A stretch of 64,000 nt of DNA from Vulcanimicrobiota bacterium (GCA_003168375.1 PMSI01000007.1:1-64000), one strand, 5' to 3'. Shown: positions 37,932 to 49,276, counted from the first letter of the stretch. The notes: generated by a model from the letters alone, not told the origin. Made by a program: numbers and translations.

Positions 37932-38327
37932 TTAGCCGAGCTTCTCTTCCAGCCGCTCGCGGAACTTGTCGCGGGAGGCGACATACCGCTCGTGAGTGCC
38001 CTCGGCGATCTTCTCGCGCTCGTCGAACGCGGTGAAGGCGTACTCGATCCGCCGGCCATCGACTTTGAGGATCTCGACCTCGGTCCGGACGATCAGCCCG
38101 ACCGGGGTGGACGCCAGGTGCGTCAGGTCGACATGGGTGCCGAGGCTGATCTCGTCGGCGTCCAGGAGGGGCGCGACGCACTGCATCGCCGCTTCCTCGA
38201 CCAGCTGGAACAGCATGGGCGTGGAGAGAACGGGTACGCCTTTGTTGCCGGCTTTCTCGGCCGTCATCCATTCCTCGACCCGGGTCTGGCTCTGGTAGGT
38301 CCTCCCAACCTCGATCTTCCCGTGCAT
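37932..38327 (-). CDS. Hotdog-fold thioesterase, FlK-like
   Basis: A 131-aa protein. VLSTPMLFQLVEEAA carries the Thr and Glu, and GTHVDLTHLASTPVG the His, of the fluoroacetyl-CoA thioesterase (FlK) catalytic set. Most relatives hydrolyse ordinary acyl-CoAs rather than fluoroacetyl-CoA. The start is ATG 38327. It faces away from the MFP adaptor gene. Confidence 0.8.
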   Translation of the reverse strand: MHGKIEVGRTYQSQTRVEEWMTAEKAGNKGVPVLSTPMLFQLVEEAAMQCVAPLLDADEISLGTHVDLTHLASTPVGLIVRTEVEILKVDGRRIEYAFTAFDEREKIAEGTHERYVASRDKFRERLEEKLG

Positions 38328-38456: not shown

Positions 38457-39953
38457 ATGAGACCGAGTCAGCGCACGTTGCTGGCCGCGGCGATCGTCGC
38501 CTTGGCGGCGACCGCGTGCGGTAAGGGGGGAGGCGCCGCCGCCGGCGGCGCTCGCACGCCGCTCGTCGTCGACGTCGCGCAGGCGCAGCGACAGAACATC
38601 GCGACGTTCGTCACGCTCGACGGGCAGATCGCGCCGATTCAGGAGTCGACGCTCAGCTCGCAGCAGTCCGGCAACGTCGCGGCGGTCTACGTCACCGAGG
38701 GCCAGCACGTCCGAAGCGGCCAGATCGTGGCCAAGCTCGACGACTCGACGCTGCGCGCCTCGCTCGTGCAGCAGCAGGCGATCGTGCAGCAGCAATCCGC
38801 CCAGCTCGGTTCGGCGACGCTTCAGGCCCCCGTCACCGTGGCACAGGCGTCGAACACCGTCGTCACGGCGCAGCAGCAGCTTGCCGCGGCCCGCAACGGC
38901 GTGCAGATCGCGCAAGCCGGGTATGACAGCGCGCTTTCGACGTACAACGCGGACAAGCAGCTCCTCGCACAAGGCTACGTCGCCCAGACGCAATACGAAC
39001 AGGCGCGCGCGCAGTACGTGCAAGCCCAGCAGGGTCTGAACAACGCTCGTGAGAGCGAACGCCAGGCGGTTACCGCGCTGCACTACGCGCAGACGCAGGG
39101 CGCGAACATGATGCCGATCCAGGGCCAGCAGATCGCGGTGAACCGCGGGCAGCTCGCAGCGGCGCAGGCGCAGGCACGCCTGCTCGAAACGGAGATCGCA
39201 CAGACCAGCATCACCGCGCCGTTCAACGGCGTCGTCACGCAGCGGCTGCTCGATCCCGGCGCGTTCGCGAGCCCAAACCAGCCCGTCGTGCGCGTCTCGC
39301 AGATCGACACGGTCTACGTGAACGTGAACGTCCCCGACGACGATCTCACCTACGTGCACACCGGAACGCCGGTCACGTTCACCACCTCGAGTCTCGCCAA
39401 CGCGACGTACAAGGCCGCGGTGATGGACGTCAACGCGACACCGACCGCGGGCACGCTCTCGTATCGGGCGCGCGTGCGCGTCCCGAATCCCAACGACCGC
39501 CTGCGAGGCGGGATGCTGGTAAGCGTCAGCGTCCGCAAGGAGTTCCATCCGAACGCGGTCGTGGTTCCACGCACCGCCGTCTTCCAGACCGAGAGCGGCG
39601 CGAACGTCTACACGGTCGCGGCCCTTCCGTCGCCGTCGCCCGGACCGGGCGGTCCTCCCGCCGCGGCGCCCCAAGCAAGCGGAGGAAACGGCGTCGCGAA
39701 AGCGGGCGGCGGCCGGCGCGGCGGCGCCGGAGCTGCGGGCGGGCCGGGCGGGCCCGCGGGGCCGCCGATGACGGTGATGCAAGCAAAACAGGTGCCGGTC
39801 CAGATCGGGCTTCAAACCGACACGCTCACCGAGATTCGCAGCGCGCAGATCCAGCCGGGGACCACGGTGATCACGACCCGGCCCGACGCCCTCCAGGACA
39901 AGAGCCCGGTGGCGTTCGCACCGGCGGCCGGCGGACGGCGCGGGCCGCAATGA
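38457..39953 (+). CDS. Periplasmic adaptor (MFP/HlyD) lipoprotein
   Basis: A 498-aa adaptor that links an inner-membrane pump to TolC. The signal ends in TAC-G (lipobox, Cys near residue 21). The biotinyl-lipoyl halves are visible (LDGQIAPIQESTLSSQQSG and TAPFNGVVTQRLLDPGAF), flanking a Gln/Ala-rich alpha-hairpin (about residues 100-245); a beta-barrel domain and a Gly/Pro-rich insertion near 390-430 follow. AAGGAG precedes the ATG at 38457. No RND, MFS or ABC pump gene is adjacent. It overlaps the TolC gene by 4 nt. Confidence 0.88.
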   Translation: MRPSQRTLLAAAIVALAATACGKGGGAAAGGARTPLVVDVAQAQRQNIATFVTLDGQIAPIQESTLSSQQSGNVAAVYVTEGQHVRSGQIVAKLDDSTLRASLVQQQAIVQQQSAQLGSATLQAPVTVAQASNTVVTAQQQLAAARNGVQIAQAGYDSALSTYNADKQLLAQGYVAQTQYEQARAQYVQAQQGLNNARESERQAVTALHYAQTQGANMMPIQGQQIAVNRGQLAAAQAQARLLETEIAQTSITAPFNGVVTQRLLDPGAFASPNQPVVRVSQIDTVYVNVNVPDDDLTYVHTGTPVTFTTSSLANATYKAAVMDVNATPTAGTLSYRARVRVPNPNDRLRGGMLVSVSVRKEFHPNAVVVPRTAVFQTESGANVYTVAALPSPSPGPGGPPAAAPQASGGNGVAKAGGGRRGGAGAAGGPGGPAGPPMTVMQAKQVPVQIGLQTDTLTEIRSAQIQPGTTVITTRPDALQDKSPVAFAPAAGGRRGPQ

Positions 39954-41557
39954 CGGGTCCGATCGCGACCGCGCGCGCGCTCGCCGGCGTCGCGCTGGCG
40001 GCGCTCGCTCTCGCCGCGTCCCCTGCGTTTGCGCAGGCTCCGACGCCGGCGGCAACCCCGGCACCCGTCCCAACCGTCAAACCGGCGGCCGCGCCGCAAC
40101 CGGGCGCGTCGCCGGCGTCGACCCAGGCCCCCTCCGGCGGCCCGGGGGCGATCAACGCGAACACGATCCCGACCCTCGAGCCGGCCGACCAGCGCTCGCC
40201 GCTGCCGTTTCCGGCGTACGGAACTCCGGCCCCGGTCACGCAGGTGCGTGCCGCGGCCGGCGTCCCGCAAGTCATCACGCTGCAGCAAGCGACGCTCATC
40301 GCGTACGCGCGCTCGCCGCTGCTCGCGGCGGCGCGCGCAAGCGTCGAGATCGCGAGCGCGCCGGTCGGGCTGGCGCAGAGCGCGCTCTTCCCGTCCGTCA
40401 CCGGCGACGTGTCGACCACGCGCTCGCACCGCCAGCCGGGAGGGTCGAACAACAGCACGACCACCGGGACCGGCACCGGTACGACGACGACGCTGAACCC
40501 GAACACGACGAGTAACAGCCTCTCGGTGCAGGTTCAGCAGCTGATCTTTGACGGCGGGCGGGTCGCGGCGCAGATTCGCGGCGCACGCGCGACGCAGTCG
40601 GCGTCGATCGCGACCTACCAGCGGCAACTGCAGACGGTCGCGTTCAACGTCGCGACGGCCTTCTACAACACGCTCTCCGCGCAGCGGCTGACGCAGGTCG
40701 ATCTGACGACGGTGGTGCTCGACCAGGTTCAGGAGAACTTGGTCAGCGCGCAGATTCGCGCCGGCACCACCGCACGCTCCGATCTCGCGACGGCGCAGCT
40801 CCCGACCGCCCAGGCGCGTGTCGCGGTCGTGCACGCGCAAGCGGCGGAACAGATCGCGCTCGCGACCTTCGCAAACACGCTGGGGCTCGACGCCGATATC
40901 GCCGTGCAGCCGAAGGACGACATCGGCCCGCTCAACGCGACGACCGGTACGCTGGCGGTCAACCCGGCGTTCCCGACACCGTCGTACGACCAAGCCGTGA
41001 CGCGCGCGATAGCGCTGCGTCCCGACCTGACGGCGCAGCAGCAGAACATCATCTCGCTCAGGGAGAACCTGCGCGCCGCCAAACTCGGCAGCTTCCCGAA
41101 CCTCAGCGGGACCGGGAGCTACGGGACCTCGTCGACGGATCCCGGCGGCGGGACGTTCCGGAACGCCGGCTCGATCGGTGTCGCGCTCTCGATTCCGATC
41201 TACGACCGCGGCGTCACGCGGGCGCAGACGGCGCAGGCGCAGGGGCAGCTCGACAATGGGGTCGCGCAGTTGCAGATCGCGCAGCAAGGGATTCAGCTGA
41301 ACGTGCGACAGGCACTGGTCAATCTGGTCGCGGCGTACGCGGCGCTCGACCAGACCAACGCCGAGCTCAGCAAAGCGCAGCAGGTGCTGCAGTCGACGCA
41401 GGCCCAGTACCGGGCCGGCGTGACGACCCTGCCGCTGCTGCTCAACGCGCAGGTCGGGATCACCCAGGCGCTGACCGACGAGGTCACGGCGGTGTACACC
41501 GTCCGGCAGGCGGAGCAGGCGCTCTTGTTCGCGGAGGGCGTGAACGCCGCCGGGTGA
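39950..41557 (+). CDS. TolC-family outer-membrane efflux protein
   Basis: A 535-aa outer-membrane channel with a signal peptide ending PAFAQ, then a Pro/Ala-rich region of about 75 residues. The body shows the internal duplication of TolC: two OEP repeats, the first near residues 100-310, the second about 325-535. NLVAAYAALDQTNAELSKAQQ and QYRAGVTTLPLLLNAQ are typical. The product of the preceding gene should dock on it. It ends in GTGA overlapping the next gene. Confidence 0.88.
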   Translation: MTGPIATARALAGVALAALALAASPAFAQAPTPAATPAPVPTVKPAAAPQPGASPASTQAPSGGPGAINANTIPTLEPADQRSPLPFPAYGTPAPVTQVRAAAGVPQVITLQQATLIAYARSPLLAAARASVEIASAPVGLAQSALFPSVTGDVSTTRSHRQPGGSNNSTTTGTGTGTTTTLNPNTTSNSLSVQVQQLIFDGGRVAAQIRGARATQSASIATYQRQLQTVAFNVATAFYNTLSAQRLTQVDLTTVVLDQVQENLVSAQIRAGTTARSDLATAQLPTAQARVAVVHAQAAEQIALATFANTLGLDADIAVQPKDDIGPLNATTGTLAVNPAFPTPSYDQAVTRAIALRPDLTAQQQNIISLRENLRAAKLGSFPNLSGTGSYGTSSTDPGGGTFRNAGSIGVALSIPIYDRGVTRAQTAQAQGQLDNGVAQLQIAQQGIQLNVRQALVNLVAAYAALDQTNAELSKAQQVLQSTQAQYRAGVTTLPLLLNAQVGITQALTDEVTAVYTVRQAEQALLFAEGVNAAG

Positions 41558-42702
41558 AGTCCCCGGCGATGACCTCCACGGCCCCGGTCTGGATCGACGA
41601 TCCCACCAACGCGGCGATCCTCGCGGTGAGCGAGGATCGTCTGCAGGGCTTCCAGCTCGATCCTTTCGGCGAGATCGCCGAGCGGAGCGGCATCGACGTC
41701 GCGACGGTTCTGGAGCGAATTGTCGCGATGGTGCGCTCGGGGACGATCCGTCGCGTGCGCCAAACGCTGATGGCGACGAACCTCGCCGCCGGAGCGCTGT
41801 GCGCGTGGCAGGTACCGCCCGAGCAGCTGAACGACGCGTTCGAGTGGCTGTTCCGCGAGGATCCGTTCTCGGGGCACGTCGTGCTCCGGACGACCGATGC
41901 CGCGACGCCGGGCTCCAACTATCGGCTGTGGACGACGCTCAAGGTGCCGCAGGGATTCTCGATCGACAAGCACGCGGCGTTTCTCGCGCGCACGATCGGC
42001 GCCGGTGCGTACCGGCTGATGCCGGCCAGGGCGCTGTTCGCGCTCGGCGTGGGGCACGTTCGGCGGCGAGGTATCGAACCGGGCGCACGCGCCGAGGTGC
42101 TGGCCGAGGTGCAGGATACCCTGATCGTCGATCTCGATGCGCTGGAGTGGCGCGTGCTCACGGCGATCAAGCGCGAACTCGCCGCTGGCGAGATCGTGCG
42201 CGACGTGTGGGCAGGGCGCGCGCGAGAAGCCGGCGTCTCGCTCGAGGAGTTCGCGCGGATCGGCGGCGCGCTGAGCGCGAAAGGCGTCATCGGCCGTTTC
42301 TCGACGTTCCTCGAGCACGTCAAGGCGAGTGCCGGTTCCGGCGGCAAGAGCGTCACGCGCTACAACGCGCTGTTCCATTGGAAGGTCCCGGCGGGACGCG
42401 AGATCGACGCGGGTCGCGAGCTCGGGCGGCACTACATCATGACCCACGCGTACTGGCGTGAAGGCGGTCCCGAGTTCCGCGGCGTCAACATCATGGGCGT
42501 TGCGCACGGTACCGAGAAGGAGACGCTGCTCGCCCACAAGGCCGCGATCGACGAGCATCTGCGCGCAGCCGGGATCGGGTTCGACTACACGAACGTGTTC
42601 TGGGGCGGCCGCAGCGAGATCAAGCCGTCGGAGATCGCACCCGCCGCGTACACGGAGTTCTGCGCGGCGCACCAGCTCGATCCGGAGGCGATGCGTTCAT
42701 GA
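41554..42702 (+). CDS. Fused Lrp/AsnC-type siroheme decarboxylase-like protein
   Basis: A 382-aa protein made of two AhbA/AhbB (NirDL)-like halves. Each half has a winged helix and an AsnC ligand domain. Half one: DPFGEIAERSGIDVATVLERI and GSNYRLWTTL with His in FSGHVVLR. Half two: RYNALFHWKVP, MTHAYWREGG and NIMGVAHG, matching the SHCYxR...N-x-MIHG region. In haem b and d1 pathways such proteins decarboxylate siroheme to didecarboxysiroheme. A plain Lrp regulator is the alternative, but regulators lack the W-T-L/H pairs. It is coupled to TolC and to the first SBP gene. Confidence 0.62.
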   Translation: MKSPAMTSTAPVWIDDPTNAAILAVSEDRLQGFQLDPFGEIAERSGIDVATVLERIVAMVRSGTIRRVRQTLMATNLAAGALCAWQVPPEQLNDAFEWLFREDPFSGHVVLRTTDAATPGSNYRLWTTLKVPQGFSIDKHAAFLARTIGAGAYRLMPARALFALGVGHVRRRGIEPGARAEVLAEVQDTLIVDLDALEWRVLTAIKRELAAGEIVRDVWAGRAREAGVSLEEFARIGGALSAKGVIGRFSTFLEHVKASAGSGGKSVTRYNALFHWKVPAGREIDAGRELGRHYIMTHAYWREGGPEFRGVNIMGVAHGTEKETLLAHKAAIDEHLRAAGIGFDYTNVFWGGRSEIKPSEIAPAAYTEFCAAHQLDPEAMRS

Positions 42703-44369
42703 TTCGTCGCTTTCTCGCAGCGAGCGCCGCTCTCGCGCTCGCGCTCTGCGCATGCACCAAGGTCGGCGACACCGTCGCCTCGTCGGGCGGCGCCGGCGCC
42801 AACAACGGGCAGTCCGGGCCTCATCCGAACCGGCTCGTGATGTCGACCGCGTCGGATCCGCGCAACCTCAACCCGGCGTTCGCCTCGGCGTCGCCGGTGC
42901 TGGAGCTCTCCGCGTTCATCTTCTCGTACACGGTCCGGTACGACGACAAGGCGCATCCGGTCCCCGATGCGGTGAGCGAGATACCGACGGTCGAGAACGG
43001 CGACGTCAGCAAAGACGGCCTGACGATCAAGTACAAGCTGCGCCACGACATCAAGTGGCACGACGGTGCGGATCTGACGTGCCGCGACCTGCGCTTCACC
43101 TGGCAAGTGATGATGAACCCCAAGAACACCGTCATCACGACCGACGGCTGGAACAAGATCAAGGACGTCGACTGCAGCGATCCCTACGTCGCCGTCGTCC
43201 ACATGAAGCAGATCTACGCCCCGTTTCTGCAGCAACTGTGGAGCCTGAACGGAAACGGCCCGATCATGCCCGAGCATCTGCTCGCCAAGGTCAACGACGA
43301 CAAGGGCAGCATGAACACGGCGCCCTACAACTCGGCTCCGGTCGGGAGCGGCCCGTACAAGTTCGTCTCGTGGGACCGCGGGAGCCAGGTTCGCCTCGAG
43401 GCGTTCCCGGCCTATTTCGGCGGGAAGCCGGCGATCCGCGAAGTCGTCTACAAGATCATTCCGGATCAGAATACGCTGGCCACGCAGCTGCAGACGCACG
43501 AGCTCGACCTGGGCTGGAACCTCGCCGCGTCGTCGTACGGCCGCGTGAAGAGCTCGCCGGGAAACACGGTGATCACGCCCGTCATCTACACTTTCGACCA
43601 TCTCGACTTCAACTTGAAGCGCCCGATGTTCCAGGACGTGCGGGTCCGGCGCGCGCTGACCTATGCGATCGACCGCGCGTCGATGCTTGAGAAGGTGCGG
43701 CACGGTTTGGGCGAGCTGAGCGACACGATGCTCGATCCCTCGCTCTTCCCGGACGCTCAGGATCCCGCGATCATAAAGTATCCGTATGACGTCGCGAAAG
43801 CGAAGGCGCTGCTCGACGAGGCAGGCTGGATCCCCGGACGCGACGGGATCCGCGTGAAGAACGGGCAGCGGCTCGAGTTTCAGCTCTCGACGCAGACCGA
43901 GTCGATCGCCGGGCTCGCGAACGAGCAGCAGGTTCAGACGTATTGGCATGACGTCGGCGCGAACGCGATCGTGAAGAACTACCCGAGCTCACTCTTCTTC
44001 GACAATACCGCGAACGGCACTCTCCAAGGCGGCAAATACGATACCGCGCTGTTCGCCTGGGTCGCCGCCGCGGACATCGATCAGGGCGCCATCTACTCCG
44101 GTCACTACTTGGCGCCCAAAGGCCAGAACGCGCTGTTTTGGGACAACCCAGTGGCGACGAAAGCGATGGACGACGCGAACGGAACGGTCGATCAAAAGAA
44201 GCGCATCGAACTCTACAAGATCGTGCAAGAAGAGTTCGCGAAGGACGATCCTTCGATCATATTGTGGTTCCGCAAGGACCTCGAGGTCTACAACTCGGCG
44301 CTCAAAGGTTTCACGCCGACCCCGGTGATCACGACGCCGTTCTGGAACACGTGGCAGCTCCACTACTGA
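42699..44369 (+). CDS. Family-5 substrate-binding lipoprotein, copy 1
   Basis: A 556-aa SBP_bac_5 (DppA/OppA-type) protein with a lipoprotein signal ending LCAC-TKVGD. RRALTYAIDRASMLEKV, SAPVGSGPYKF and YKIIPDQNTLATQLQTHELDL are family hallmarks. Family-5 SBPs bind peptides, nickel chelates, sugars or haem. It starts with ATGA overlap from the decarboxylase-like gene and is the most divergent of four tandem copies. No permease or ATPase follows. Confidence 0.88.
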   Translation: MIRRFLAASAALALALCACTKVGDTVASSGGAGANNGQSGPHPNRLVMSTASDPRNLNPAFASASPVLELSAFIFSYTVRYDDKAHPVPDAVSEIPTVENGDVSKDGLTIKYKLRHDIKWHDGADLTCRDLRFTWQVMMNPKNTVITTDGWNKIKDVDCSDPYVAVVHMKQIYAPFLQQLWSLNGNGPIMPEHLLAKVNDDKGSMNTAPYNSAPVGSGPYKFVSWDRGSQVRLEAFPAYFGGKPAIREVVYKIIPDQNTLATQLQTHELDLGWNLAASSYGRVKSSPGNTVITPVIYTFDHLDFNLKRPMFQDVRVRRALTYAIDRASMLEKVRHGLGELSDTMLDPSLFPDAQDPAIIKYPYDVAKAKALLDEAGWIPGRDGIRVKNGQRLEFQLSTQTESIAGLANEQQVQTYWHDVGANAIVKNYPSSLFFDNTANGTLQGGKYDTALFAWVAAADIDQGAIYSGHYLAPKGQNALFWDNPVATKAMDDANGTVDQKKRIELYKIVQEEFAKDDPSIILWFRKDLEVYNSALKGFTPTPVITTPFWNTWQLHY

Positions 44370-45985
44370 GGCGCCGCGCCTTCGCGCTCGTGCTCGCGGC
44401 GTGCGCTGCGATCGTCCCCGGGACGTCGGGCGCGCAGGGCACCCGGCATCCGTACACGACCCCGCACGTTCTGCGCTACGCAACCGGCGAGGACATCGTC
44501 GGGCTCAACCCGCACCTCGTCCAGCAGCTGACGGTGTCGTTCATGAGTCAGATGACGATGGCGTGGCTGCTGCGCTACGACAAGCGCAACCACCCCGTCC
44601 CCGAGCTTGCGACCGCGGTACCGTCAAAGACGAACGGGGGGATCTCCCCCGACGGCAAGACGATCACGTACCACCTGCGGCGCGACGCGAAGTGGTCCGA
44701 CGGTGTGCCGTTCACTGCCGACGATGTCCGCTTCTCGGTCGACGTCGTGCGAAATCCGGCCAACAACGAGGGGACGCATCTCGGTTTCGACCAGATCGAC
44801 CGCGTCGACACGCCCGATCCGTACACGGTCGTCTTCCGGATGCTGCGGCCGTACAGCGGCTTCTACGTCAACTTCTTCAGCTCGGGCGGCGCGAACCCGT
44901 GCGTCCTACCGAAGCACGTGCTGGACAAGCTGCCGAACATCAACGATGCACCCTACAATGCGCTGCCGGTCGGGATCGGGCCGTTCAAGTACGCGTCGTG
45001 GAAGCGCGCCGACAGCGTCGAGATGGTACCCGATCCGCTCTACTTCGGGCGCAAGCCCAAGCTGCAGCGCGTGATCTTCAAGATCATTCCCGACCGCAAC
45101 ACGACCCTGACGCAGCTGACGACGCACGAGATCGATCTGTGGGGGGCCGTGCCGGCCGCGTTCTACGACCGTGCGCGTGCTTTGCCGGGCGTCACGACGA
45201 TCCGGCAGGCGTCGTACGGTTTCAACCACGTCGACTTCAACCTTGAGCACGGCGCGTTACGCGATCCGGTCGTGCGGCAGGCGCTGCGCCTGGCGATCGA
45301 CCGCGCGATCATCCGCGAGAAGATCCGCCACGGCGTCGGGATCCTTCAGGAAACGCCGTTCGCGCCGGGTCATCCGTTCCACGTCGACCTGCCGCGCGTG
45401 CCGTTCGACATCGCCGCGGCGAACCGGCTGCTCGACGCTGCCGGCTGGAAGCGCGGCGCGGACGGCGTTCGCGCGAAGAACGGTGAGCGACTCGAATTCA
45501 ACGTCGCGATCGGTGTCGGACTCCCGGACACCGACGCGATCCTCGAGATCATGCGGCCGTCGTGGGCGGAGATCGGCGCCCACTTCGACGTGCGGCATTA
45601 TCCCTCTCCGCTCTACTTCGCGCCGGCCCAAACCGGCGGGATACTCTACTCCGGGAAGTACGACGTCTCGCTGTACGCCTGGTTCACCAATCCCAACGGC
45701 GACCTCACCAATCTCTATGCCTGCGACCGCATACCGCCGAAGGGTCAGAACGTGCCGCGCTACTGCAATCGGACCGTCGATGCGGCGATGCGGCGTTTCA
45801 TCGCGACCTACGATCTTGCGGAGCAGCGCGCTGCGTCGCGGGTCATGCAGGAGGCGCTCGTCCGCGACGTTCCGACGATCGTCCTCGACGCGCGCGAGGA
45901 CGTCTACGCCTTCAACGACGACTTGCACGACTTCCACCCCAACCAAGTGACCGCATTCGACGACCTCGTCGAGGCCGACATCTGA
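44351..45985 (+). CDS. Family-5 substrate-binding protein, copy 2
   Basis: A 544-aa SBP starting at GTG 44351, overlapping copy 1 by 19 nt. The N-terminus (FALVLAACAAIVPG) allows either a lipobox (LAAC) or signal peptidase I cleavage after SGAQ. The mature protein begins HPYTTPHVLRYATGEDIVGLNPHLVQQ, nearly as in copy 3. GGANPCVLPKHVLDKLPNIN is shared with copies 3 and 4, marking them as recent paralogs. Confidence 0.88.
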   Translation: MAAPLLRRRAFALVLAACAAIVPGTSGAQGTRHPYTTPHVLRYATGEDIVGLNPHLVQQLTVSFMSQMTMAWLLRYDKRNHPVPELATAVPSKTNGGISPDGKTITYHLRRDAKWSDGVPFTADDVRFSVDVVRNPANNEGTHLGFDQIDRVDTPDPYTVVFRMLRPYSGFYVNFFSSGGANPCVLPKHVLDKLPNINDAPYNALPVGIGPFKYASWKRADSVEMVPDPLYFGRKPKLQRVIFKIIPDRNTTLTQLTTHEIDLWGAVPAAFYDRARALPGVTTIRQASYGFNHVDFNLEHGALRDPVVRQALRLAIDRAIIREKIRHGVGILQETPFAPGHPFHVDLPRVPFDIAAANRLLDAAGWKRGADGVRAKNGERLEFNVAIGVGLPDTDAILEIMRPSWAEIGAHFDVRHYPSPLYFAPAQTGGILYSGKYDVSLYAWFTNPNGDLTNLYACDRIPPKGQNVPRYCNRTVDAAMRRFIATYDLAEQRAASRVMQEALVRDVPTIVLDAREDVYAFNDDLHDFHPNQVTAFDDLVEADI

Positions 45986-45992
45986 GGTGCCC

Positions 45993-47642
45993 GTGAAAAG
46001 ACTCCTTGCAACCGCCCTCGTCGCGCTGCTGACGGCAGGCTGCACGAAGGTCGCCACCGTCGGCTCAGCGGCGGCGACACCCGGGCCGAACGGTGCCCGG
46101 AACGCGTACACCGTTCCGCATGTGCTGCGCTACGCGACCGCCGAAGACATCGTCGGGCTGAACCCGCACCTGACGCAGCAGACGGTGCTCAGCTACATGG
46201 CCTCGCTGACGATGGCGTGGCTGGTCAAGTTCGATCACGAGAACCGCGCGATTCCGGAACTGGCGACCGAAGTTCCGACGCAGGCGAACGGCGGGATCAG
46301 CAAAGACGGGCTCACGATCACGTATCACTTGCGGAAGGACGCGAAGTGGTCGGACGGCGTGCCGTTCACCGCCGACGACGTCGTGTTTTCGACGAAGGTC
46401 GTGCTGAACCCGAAAAACAACGAGGTCGGCCGCGACGGCTGGGACCTGATCGCAAAGATCGATGAACCCGACAAGTACACGGTCGTCTATCACCTGAAGA
46501 AGCCGTACGCGACGTACGTGTCGACGTTCTTCAGCTCCGGTGGGGCCAACCCGTGTATCCTGCCGGAGCACCTGCTCCGCGGGCTGCCGGACATCAACAA
46601 CGCGCCCTACAATGCGCTTCCGGTCGGGATCGGGCCGTTCAAGTACCAGAGCTGGAAGCGCAGCGACTCGGTCACGATCGTGCCGAACCCGAGCTACTTT
46701 CGCGGCTTGCCGAAGCTGCAGAAGATCGTCTTCAGGATCGTCCCCGACCGCAATACGGTGCTGACGCAGTTGCAGACGCACGAGATCGATCTTTGGACAC
46801 CGGTCCCGCCGGCGTTCTACGATCGCACCAAGGCGATCCCGGGGCTGGTGGTCGACCGCTACCCGAGCTACTACTTCGGCCACATCGACTTCCAGAACCA
46901 GCATCCCGGCCTCGACGATCCGCGCGTACGCCGCGCGCTGCGGATGGCGATCGACCGTGACGAGATCAAGCAGAAGATCCGCCACGGGATCGGGATCGTT
47001 CAGGACGACCCCATCTCGCCTGCGCATCCGACCTTCGACAAGGCCGTGCCCACCGCCAAGTTCGATCTCGACGCGGCCGGGAAACTGCTCGACGAAGCGG
47101 GCTGGGCGCCCGGTCCGGACGGGATCCGCGCGAAGAACGGCCACTCGCTCAACCTGAACTTCGCCACCTCGACCGGGACGCCGGACGCCGATCAGCAGAT
47201 CGAGCTGATCCGCGCGAACTGGAAGAAGATCGGCGTCGCGATCAGCGTCCGGCGCTATCCTGCGCAGCTGATGTTCGCGCCGTATGCCGACAACGGGATC
47301 GTTTACGGCGGCAAGTGGGATCTGATCGTCTTCAATTGGGGCGGCGACCCGATCGGCGACCTCTCGACCCTGTATTCGTGCGATTCGATCCCGCCGAAGG
47401 GGCAGAACGATCCCCGGTACTGCGATCACAGCGTCTCCGAGGCGATGGACAAGTTCAAGGGCGAGTACGACGAGTCGAAGCGGCAGAAGTATTCCGACCT
47501 GATCCAGGAAGGCATCGCGAAGGACGCCCCGATCGTAGTGCTCGACATCCTGGAAGACATCTACGCGCACAACAGCGACCTAAGAGGTTTCAAGCCGAAT
47601 CAAGTCTCGCAGTTCGACGATTTCATGAACGTCGATATCTGA
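45993..47642 (+). CDS. Family-5 substrate-binding lipoprotein, copy 3
   Basis: A 549-aa SBP. The GTG at 45993 is chosen over 45987 because GAGG lies five bases upstream of it. The signal ends LTAGC-TKVATV, so it is lipid-anchored like copy 1. The segment VGRDGWDLIAKIDEPDKYTV is almost identical in copy 4. It begins 7 bp after copy 2. Differences among the copies lie mainly in the central ligand-contact regions, so they may bind related but distinct ligands. Confidence 0.88.
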   Translation: MKRLLATALVALLTAGCTKVATVGSAAATPGPNGARNAYTVPHVLRYATAEDIVGLNPHLTQQTVLSYMASLTMAWLVKFDHENRAIPELATEVPTQANGGISKDGLTITYHLRKDAKWSDGVPFTADDVVFSTKVVLNPKNNEVGRDGWDLIAKIDEPDKYTVVYHLKKPYATYVSTFFSSGGANPCILPEHLLRGLPDINNAPYNALPVGIGPFKYQSWKRSDSVTIVPNPSYFRGLPKLQKIVFRIVPDRNTVLTQLQTHEIDLWTPVPPAFYDRTKAIPGLVVDRYPSYYFGHIDFQNQHPGLDDPRVRRALRMAIDRDEIKQKIRHGIGIVQDDPISPAHPTFDKAVPTAKFDLDAAGKLLDEAGWAPGPDGIRAKNGHSLNLNFATSTGTPDADQQIELIRANWKKIGVAISVRRYPAQLMFAPYADNGIVYGGKWDLIVFNWGGDPIGDLSTLYSCDSIPPKGQNDPRYCDHSVSEAMDKFKGEYDESKRQKYSDLIQEGIAKDAPIVVLDILEDIYAHNSDLRGFKPNQVSQFDDFMNVDI

Positions 47643-47644
47643 CG

Positions 47645-49276
47645 GTGAGCGAAAGCTCAGTGAAGAAGACTCTTGCCGTCGCGCTGTCGGCGACCCTGCT
47701 CACCGGTTTCGCCAACGCGGGTGCCGCGGCGCGAGACCGGGTGAACCCGTTCACGATTCCGCATGTGCTGCGCGTCGGCGACACGCAAGACTTCGACACC
47801 CTGAACCCGCATCTCGCGACCGCGATCACGCTGGGCAACCTTTCGCAGCTCACGATGGCATATCTCGTGCGCTACGGCCGTGACAACAGACCTGTTCCCG
47901 AGCTCGCGACGGTGGTTCCGACGCAGGCAAACGGCGGGATCAGCCGGGACGGCCGCACGATCACCTGGCACCTCCGCCGGAATGTGAAGTGGTCCGACGG
48001 CGCGCCGTTCGACGCCGACGACGTGGTGTGGTCGACGAATGCGGTCAACAATCCGGCGAACAACGAGGTCGGGCGCGACGGCTGGGACCTGATCGCGAGA
48101 ATCGACGAGCCCGACAAGTACACGGTCGTTTTCCATTTGAAAAAGCCGTACTCGGGCTATCTGCCGACCTTCTTCGGCTCGGCCGGCGCGAACCCGTGCA
48201 TTCTTCCGAAGCACGTCCTCGCCTCGTTGCCGAACATCAACAACGCGCCGTACAACAGCAAGCCGGTCGGTATCGGGCCGTTCCGCTACGTCGAGTGGGT
48301 TCGTGCCGACCACGTTACGCTCGAAGCCAATCCCTACTACTGGCGCGGCAAGCCGGCGTTGGAGAAGGTAGTCTACAAGATCATCCCCGATCGCAACACA
48401 CTGCTCACGCAGCTCGAGACGGGCGAAGTCGATCTGTGGGCGTACGTTCCGCCGGCGTTCGCCGGCCGCGCGATGGCGCTCAAGACCGTGGCGTATGTTC
48501 GCGCGCCGGGCGCGCTCTACCAGCATCTCGACTTCAACACGACGCATCCCGCGCTGCGCGACCGCGCGGTGCGGGCGGCGCTGCGCCTCGCGCTCGACCG
48601 GCCGGCGATGCAGCAGAAGATCAGCCACGGAATCGGAATCGTGCAAGAGAGTTCGATCTCGCCGGCGCTGCCGCTCGCGACGACGCTGCCCTTCGTCGGC
48701 TTCGATCTCGCCAAGGCGAACCGCATGCTCGACGACGCCGGCTGGAAGCGCGGTGCGGACGGGATCCGCGCGAAAAACGGCGTCCGCCTGAGCCTCGAGT
48801 GGGCGACCGTGTCGGGGAGCCCGGACGCCGACTCGCGGATCGAGCTGATCCGCAGCATGTGGGAGCAAGCCGGGGTCGCGTTCGACGTGAAGCACTACAA
48901 CGTGGCGCTGTTCTTCCAACTCCGCGGCGGGATCGCGTACGACGGCAAGTTCGACGTGACGGCGTTCGGCTGGCAGATGACGCCCGACGCCGACCTCAAC
49001 CCGTTCAACTCGTGCACCCTTATGCCGCCGCAGGGACAGAACATAACGCGGCTCTGCGATCCGCGGCTGGAGAAGCTGCTACAGGAGCAAAAAGTCACCT
49101 ACGACGAGCAGAAGCGCAAGGCGATCGCCGCCCAGGCGCTCAAGATCATCGACGACGAGGTTCCGTACGTCGTGCTGTTCATCCAGGAGAACGTGCACGT
49201 CTACAACCGCGATCTCACCGCCTGGCACCCCAACACCGCGACGCCGTTCGACAACTTCATGAACGTCGATATTTAA
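47645..49276 (+). CDS. Family-5 substrate-binding protein, copy 4
   Basis: A 543-aa SBP with a type I signal (LLTGFANAGAA) and no lipobox, so it should be free in the periplasm. It starts at GTG 47645 (or 47660) two bases after copy 3. It keeps PNINNAPYNSKPVGIGPFRY and the family beta-strand pattern. Its stop overlaps the stop of the convergent glycosyltransferase gene (TTAA). It closes the seven-gene unit that starts at 38457. Confidence 0.88.
   Translation: MSESSVKKTLAVALSATLLTGFANAGAAARDRVNPFTIPHVLRVGDTQDFDTLNPHLATAITLGNLSQLTMAYLVRYGRDNRPVPELATVVPTQANGGISRDGRTITWHLRRNVKWSDGAPFDADDVVWSTNAVNNPANNEVGRDGWDLIARIDEPDKYTVVFHLKKPYSGYLPTFFGSAGANPCILPKHVLASLPNINNAPYNSKPVGIGPFRYVEWVRADHVTLEANPYYWRGKPALEKVVYKIIPDRNTLLTQLETGEVDLWAYVPPAFAGRAMALKTVAYVRAPGALYQHLDFNTTHPALRDRAVRAALRLALDRPAMQQKISHGIGIVQESSISPALPLATTLPFVGFDLAKANRMLDDAGWKRGADGIRAKNGVRLSLEWATVSGSPDADSRIELIRSMWEQAGVAFDVKHYNVALFFQLRGGIAYDGKFDVTAFGWQMTPDADLNPFNSCTLMPPQGQNITRLCDPRLEKLLQEQKVTYDEQKRKAIAAQALKIIDDEVPYVVLFIQENVHVYNRDLTAWHPNTATPFDNFMNVDI

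Follow-up and report, generated by a model that had tools for sequence, protein, structure and literature searches.

A predicted siroheme decarboxylase, probably of a hybrid haem route, beside a separable export and binding-protein module in Vulcanimicrobiota

Whether genes packed into one tight operon also share one function is the question raised by a seven-gene unit of a Vulcanimicrobiota (Eremiobacterota) bacterium, whose genome comprises 4.43 Mb in seven contigs. The unit is found in PMSI01000007.1:1-64000 of assembly GCA_003168375.1, a stretch of 64,000 nucleotides hereafter called the window, and encodes an RND-type periplasmic adaptor lipoprotein (MFP), a TolC-family outer-membrane channel, a fused AhbA/AhbB-like protein (here named AHB) and four tandem family-5 binding proteins (SBPs). 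The original prediction, made for this DNA before the present analysis, assigned all of them to a system for tetrapyrrole capture and export. The comparative genomics here presented, which constitutes the whole case, points instead to two separable parts, AHB being the siroheme decarboxylase of a hybrid haem route that is encoded beside an unrelated export/SBP module, a reading to which we give a probability of roughly 0.8. It builds on gene content, homology, an anticorrelation between genes, and the absence of AHB from loci that retain the module; from these we infer the AHB reaction, the flux from siroheme to coproheme and the cargo of the module.

A profile built from 19 proteins (AHB and 18 relatives at 62-84% identity, across phyla) was searched against the PDB with hmmsearch, the best match being NirDL (4CH7, E=8e-14, both halves, residues 27-326), followed by AhbA/AhbB, with Lrp/AsnC regulators far behind. 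The AlphaFold model of AHB led to the same protein, with a Foldseek E=5.7e-15 to 4CH7 and a VIA Z of 13.6 to 4CZC. Thus, the comparison with AhbA/AhbB structures that had been proposed for this protein supports a fused AhbA/AhbB-type chain, closest to NirDL by both sequence and fold. The invariant AHB residues H108, R112, H298, Y300, R302 and H318 align with NirDL H93, R97, H261, Y263, R265 and H280, respectively, the three histidines H108, H298 and H318 standing opposite H93, H261 and H280. Like NirDL, a bacterial two-domain fusion, AHB contains two helix-turn-helix (HTH)-RAM halves per chain and keeps the aligned His/Arg positions, although identity is only ~20%, both AHB loops after the conserved histidines hold extra residues, and NirDL works in the synthesis of haem d1, AHB in contrast being distributed in step with haem b genes. 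AhbA/AhbB (4CZD, 4UN1) belong to the same family and feed haem b via siroheme, but they are two separate subunits acting with AhbC and AhbD, while AHB is one fused chain in genomes that have the coproheme decarboxylase ChdC and in which AhbC is often not detected. A second PF17805 match in the source genome (C7:215558) was considered as another decarboxylase and rejected, being a stand-alone RAM protein of 92 amino acids.

Gene distribution was then evaluated in 99 genomes of the family, 86 of them with AHB and 13 without. Ferrochelatase HemH (PF00762) is encoded in 12 of the 99, that is, in 3/86 AHB-positive versus 9/13 AHB-negative genomes (Fisher p=8e-8), and in 3/51 versus 3/4 when only good-quality genomes are considered (Fisher p=0.003). 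This anticorrelation led to a prediction about HemE whose outcome was as expected: HemE is present in all 12 HemH-positive genomes and was not found in any of the 29 tested genomes with AHB and without HemH. ChdC was detected in 32/32 tested AHB-positive genomes of the family, with its FYPM.K.R motif conserved, and in 10/10 AHB-positive genomes labelled as Verrucomicrobia or Armatimonadota. The control genomes of Deinobacterium chartae and Sulfolobus acidocaldarius also contain PF17805 and ChdC, with HemE and HemH not found. On a tree of MFP, TolC and the neighbouring FlK thioesterase, all from the AHB locus itself, AHB-negative genomes appear as isolated, scattered tips; the switch therefore happened repeatedly, and a single inherited event does not account for the association. 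HemE-positive genomes display hemE-hemF-hemH-hemY or hemE-hemH-hemY operons, in some cases close to an AhbD-like radical-SAM gene. Operons of the four-gene type at L213-L215 and L226 (genomes G057, G077, G029 and G096) lie, every one, in an AHB-negative genome, and look as though the classical pathway had been acquired or retained repeatedly. Lineages with HemE-HemH genes would mostly have lost AHB.

The remaining steps of the proposed route can be followed in the source genome. A hemA-hemL-hemB cluster with SirC-HemC (CysG_N/SirC-HemC) and CobA-HemD fusions leads to siroheme, and would supply it to AHB. As a single chain, AHB is predicted to turn siroheme into 12,18-didecarboxysiroheme by decarboxylating the acetates on rings C and D, in what would be the committed step of haem synthesis. 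Conversion to coproheme would rely on AhbC in about a third of the genomes, the source genome included, and on some other enzyme in the rest, with ChdC, encoded elsewhere in the genome, probably yielding haem b. Profile searches of the source genome did not find HemE or HemH (the genome-wide searches of AHB-positive genomes covering neither HemF nor HemY), and detected ChdC as well as an AhbC/NirJ1-like gene that adjoins an AhbD-like (TIGR04053) radical-SAM gene. The AhbC/NirJ1-like gene reaches about 485 bits for a cut-off of 650, the NirJ1 and AhbC models scoring equally. TIGR04053 genes also occur near hemE-hemH at L217 and L218 (G025 and G080), and further copies adjoin AhbC in AHB-positive genomes; these two settings point to TIGR04053 as a coproheme decarboxylase of AhbD-like type.

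Haloarchaea are known to combine an Ahb-type front end with ChdC (PMC5746218, PMC8305020), and mixed haem-pathway genes have been reported in Chloroflexota (PMC10991733). The hybrid route of Haloferax volcanii (NirDL/NirGH fusions, AhbC, AhbD and ChdC; PMC5746218, PMC8305020) resembles the AHB genomes in its fused AhbA/B proteins, in the lack of a HemE-HemH route and in the use of ChdC as the aerobic last step. On the contrary, Haloferax has AhbC, while none is detected in most AHB-positive Eremiobacterota, which moreover are bacteria. Our literature search found no description of an Ahb-type front end with ChdC in Eremiobacterota or Verrucomicrobia, nor any paper linking siroheme decarboxylase with Verrucomicrobia; two papers mentioning both Eremiobacterota and haem biosynthesis show neither term in their title or abstract.

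Regarding the locus itself, the order FlK / MFP-TolC-AHB-SBP(1-5) recurs in about 50 family loci, so that the arrangement is not due to chance, and in this respect the gene order behaves in relatives as the original prediction anticipated. FlK adjoins MFP in nearly all family loci, either with or without AHB, and the conserved synteny also takes in the divergently oriented neighbours CuAO-N, FlK, GT87 and M50. The 4-nt junctions are not conserved in relatives, where TolC-AHB gaps range from -4 to 269 nt and AHB-SBP gaps from -8 to 291 nt. Since synteny reaches opposite-strand neighbours and junctions vary, adjacency is by itself a poor guide to common function. AHB is markedly more conserved (about 66-95%) than MFP, TolC and SBPs (about 34-84%, in family loci outside the nearest relatives).

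Some family-5 SBPs, such as DppA and HbpA, bind haem, and this, together with an adjacency kept throughout the family and the tight junctions of the source genome, would favour a joint system of AHB, MFP, TolC and SBPs dedicated to capturing and exporting tetrapyrroles (or porphyrin precursors or peptides). Nevertheless, all 12 AHB-negative genomes with a TolC match keep FlK, MFP, TolC and SBPs at the same locus, with no AHB remnant seen and TolC separated from the first SBP by 12-236 nt, and the SBPs of four AHB-negative genomes share clades on the tree with those of AHB-positive ones. In Verrucomicrobia, AHB homologues adjoin MsrP, HemW or unrelated genes, MFP, TolC or SBPs being present in no locus read. 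Moreover, an SBP gene in the source genome typically has no permease gene beside it: this genome encodes 19 family-5 SBPs, most of them alone and without permease (L107-L117), and among the SBP loci read only a trio on contig 5 (G000:C5:129473-133708) adjoins Dpp-type permeases. Considering, in addition, that the conserved synteny includes genes on the opposite strand and that AHB follows the haem pathway, joint capture and export is not borne out and appears very improbable. The claim that AHB acts on siroheme is itself well supported by homology, though for an enzyme of haem synthesis and not for a component of capture or export.

Two further roles for AHB depend on the same observations. 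With NirDL as closest structure, and with the radical-SAM partner in the source genome scoring equally as NirJ1 and AhbC, AHB might supply didecarboxysiroheme for the haem d1 of cytochrome cd1 nitrite reductase rather than for haem b. This is very improbable, since AHB is nearly family-wide while a NirJ/AhbC-like gene is confined to 28/99 genomes, and since AHB tracks the absence of HemE/HemH and the presence of ChdC, neither of which haem d1 needs (cytochrome cd1 was not itself searched). An Lrp/AsnC-type transcriptional regulator of the operon or of haem genes, with double HTH and RAM, would agree with the AsnC_trans_reg2 annotation, the weak HTH matches and a fold resembling Lrp/AsnC proteins. 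However, NirDL and AhbA/B outrank every Lrp/AsnC regulator by sequence, as NirDL does by fold, AHB presence follows the haem enzymes while its neighbours stay when it is lost, and putative active-site residues are invariant among relatives of 62-84% identity across phyla, making regulation the least probable of these alternatives.

Returning to AHB as a siroheme decarboxylase for haem b beside a separable module, several observations weigh against this interpretation. AHB scores 40.9 bits with the AhbA model (cut-off 140) and 70.1 bits with that of AhbB (cut-off 125), below these NCBIfam equivalog thresholds, and would therefore represent a distinct subfamily; its A-half lacks the Tyr of the NirDL SHNYER motif, and its AlphaFold model is of moderate quality (pLDDT 65.7). 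Regarding distribution, three genomes carry AHB together with HemH/HemE, two (G047 and G048) contain neither AHB nor HemH/HemE, and two Verrucomicrobial genomes combine AHB with HemE (HemH was not searched in Verrucomicrobial genomes). AhbC-like genes were detected (E 1e-50) in 28/99 genomes, all of them AHB-positive, and not in most AHB-positive genomes, where the step from didecarboxysiroheme to coproheme is therefore left without a known enzyme. Two leads for this step were discarded: the conserved neighbours of ChdC (PanE-like, dUTPase and ATP-cone proteins) include none that fits, and HemW, which adjoins AHB in some Verrucomicrobia, is an ordinary HemW and also the sole HemN-family member in Vulcanimicrobium alpinum.

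This last organism adds two more difficulties. Genome G087, from the same genus as the source genome, is taken by inference to be that of the cultured V. alpinum WC8-2. HemE, HemH, HemN, AhbC and AhbD were not found in this complete genome (the genome-wide searches covering neither HemF nor HemY), and the 400 kb of it that were read, with the photosynthesis cluster lying outside, showed no HemE/F/H/Y or AhbC/D. Its 13 radical-SAM proteins are MoaA, MiaB, RimO, LipA, HemW, MqnC/E, HpnH, RlmN, QueE, KamA-like, ApyD-like and one unnamed (MiaB, RimO, LipA and RlmN being named by eye from sequence), with no AhbC, AhbD, NirJ or HemN among them, so the AhbC gap extends to this genome. Bacteriochlorophyll synthesis begins from metal-free protoporphyrin IX. 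V. alpinum produces bacteriochlorophyll a (PMC9758169), which a route with iron insertion at siroheme leaves unexplained. A diverged enzyme may have been missed by the searches; otherwise, protoporphyrin IX would arise there in an undescribed way. As a tentative extension, possible though rather doubtful, aerobic Eremiobacterota including V. alpinum might make all their porphyrins from siroheme via AHB, a novel AhbC replacement and ChdC, with V. alpinum obtaining protoporphyrin IX without uroporphyrinogen decarboxylase through an undescribed step (e.g., haem or coproheme losing its iron, or a siroheme branch working without metal).

As for the other part of the unit, MFP, TolC and 1-5 tandem family-5 SBPs may be viewed as an independently kept envelope module with no need of AHB. 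No gene for an inner-membrane pump, as a tripartite efflux system has, occurs in the unit or between the genes of family loci, and the unit also lacks the permease and ATPase genes of Dpp/Opp/Nik ABC importers. MFP and TolC would probably serve, as adaptor and channel, a pump whose gene lies elsewhere, with orphan SBPs alongside. In having an adaptor and channel without pump, and SBPs without permease, the unit resembles orphan pairs of MFP and TolC as well as family-5 SBPs that lack a permease, the latter also seen elsewhere in the source genome, but it differs from them in that its 1-5 SBPs stand in a tandem array, make up a clade specific to the locus and are fixed beside MFP-TolC family-wide. 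The SBP tree, one of the checks proposed earlier, places the four SBPs of the unit in a locus-private clade, SBP1 being an old ortholog lineage and SBP2-4 lineage-specific duplicates, with the contig 5 trio distant from them. The family-5 SBPs of the source genome represent a lineage-specific expansion of predicted orphan binding lipoproteins.

The features of the locus are collected in Table 1. All seven open reading frames claimed for 38457-49276 are present there on the + strand, and Pfam and NCBIfam searches confirm their domain calls (MFP lipoprotein, TolC, fused AhbA/AhbB-like protein and four SBP_bac_5) as well as the absence of pump, permease and ATPase genes within the unit. Junctions are as tight as described, with 4-nt overlaps (ATGA/GTGA), a 19-nt overlap between SBP1 and SBP2, and others of 1-7 nt. 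For AHB, relatives favour the ATG start over the GTG one. Lipid anchoring of SBP1 and SBP3 and a soluble SBP4 agree with the earlier assignment, which needs correction for its omission of SBP2: from its GTG start this protein shows a plausible lipobox (..RRRAFALVLAAC..), and is possibly also lipid-anchored, via LAAC. Scanning for promoters and terminators gave matches at chance level only.

Table 1. Genes of the unit and its left neighbour, in window coordinates
Feature	Position	Strand	Supporting evidence and remarks
FlK-type (fluoroacetyl-CoA-specific) thioesterase	37932..38327	-	PF22636 107 bits; divergent, conserved beside MFP
RND-type periplasmic adaptor (MFP) lipoprotein	38457..39953	+	TIGR01730 173.7 bits; first gene of the unit
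TolC-family outer-membrane channel	39950..41557	+	OEP PF02321 180 bits
AHB, fused AhbA-AhbB/NirDL-type predicted siroheme decarboxylase	41554 (GTG) or 41569 (ATG)..42702	+	AsnC_trans_reg2 twice, NirDL-like HTH
SBP1, family-5 binding protein	42699..44369	+	SBP_bac_5 267 bits; lipoprotein signal ..LALCAC..
SBP2, family-5 binding protein, GTG start	44351..45985	+	SBP_bac_5 265 bits; 19-nt overlap with SBP1
SBP3, family-5 binding protein	45987..47642	+	SBP_bac_5 307 bits; lipobox LTAGC
SBP4, family-5 binding protein, apparently soluble secreted	47639..49276	+	SBP_bac_5 286 bits

Two side observations were made at other loci. In several Verrucomicrobia (L058, L062, L066) AHB is placed after the gene for MsrP, a methionine sulfoxide reductase. 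In the source genome, L150:3611-5355 (G000:C4) encodes a GDL-motif-peptide radical-SAM maturase (TIGR03913, slightly under its cut-off) with a small open reading frame upstream, a possible locus for a ribosomally synthesized and post-translationally modified peptide.

Genes that keep their place in a tight operon do not necessarily share a function, as indicated here by an operon that is kept when its AHB gene is lost. The analysis also exposes two gaps, namely that AhbC is undetected in most genomes and that one cultured phototroph makes bacteriochlorophyll a with no detectable HemE. The siroheme route to haem has been described as that of archaea and sulfate reducers (PMC10991733, PMC7242693); it is rarely seen in oxygen-breathing bacteria, and here it appears to replace the usual haem enzymes across the family. 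If this is true, a large, mostly aerobic bacterial family and some Verrucomicrobia would make haem mainly by the siroheme route, and repeated swaps to HemE-HemH would be visible between sister species.

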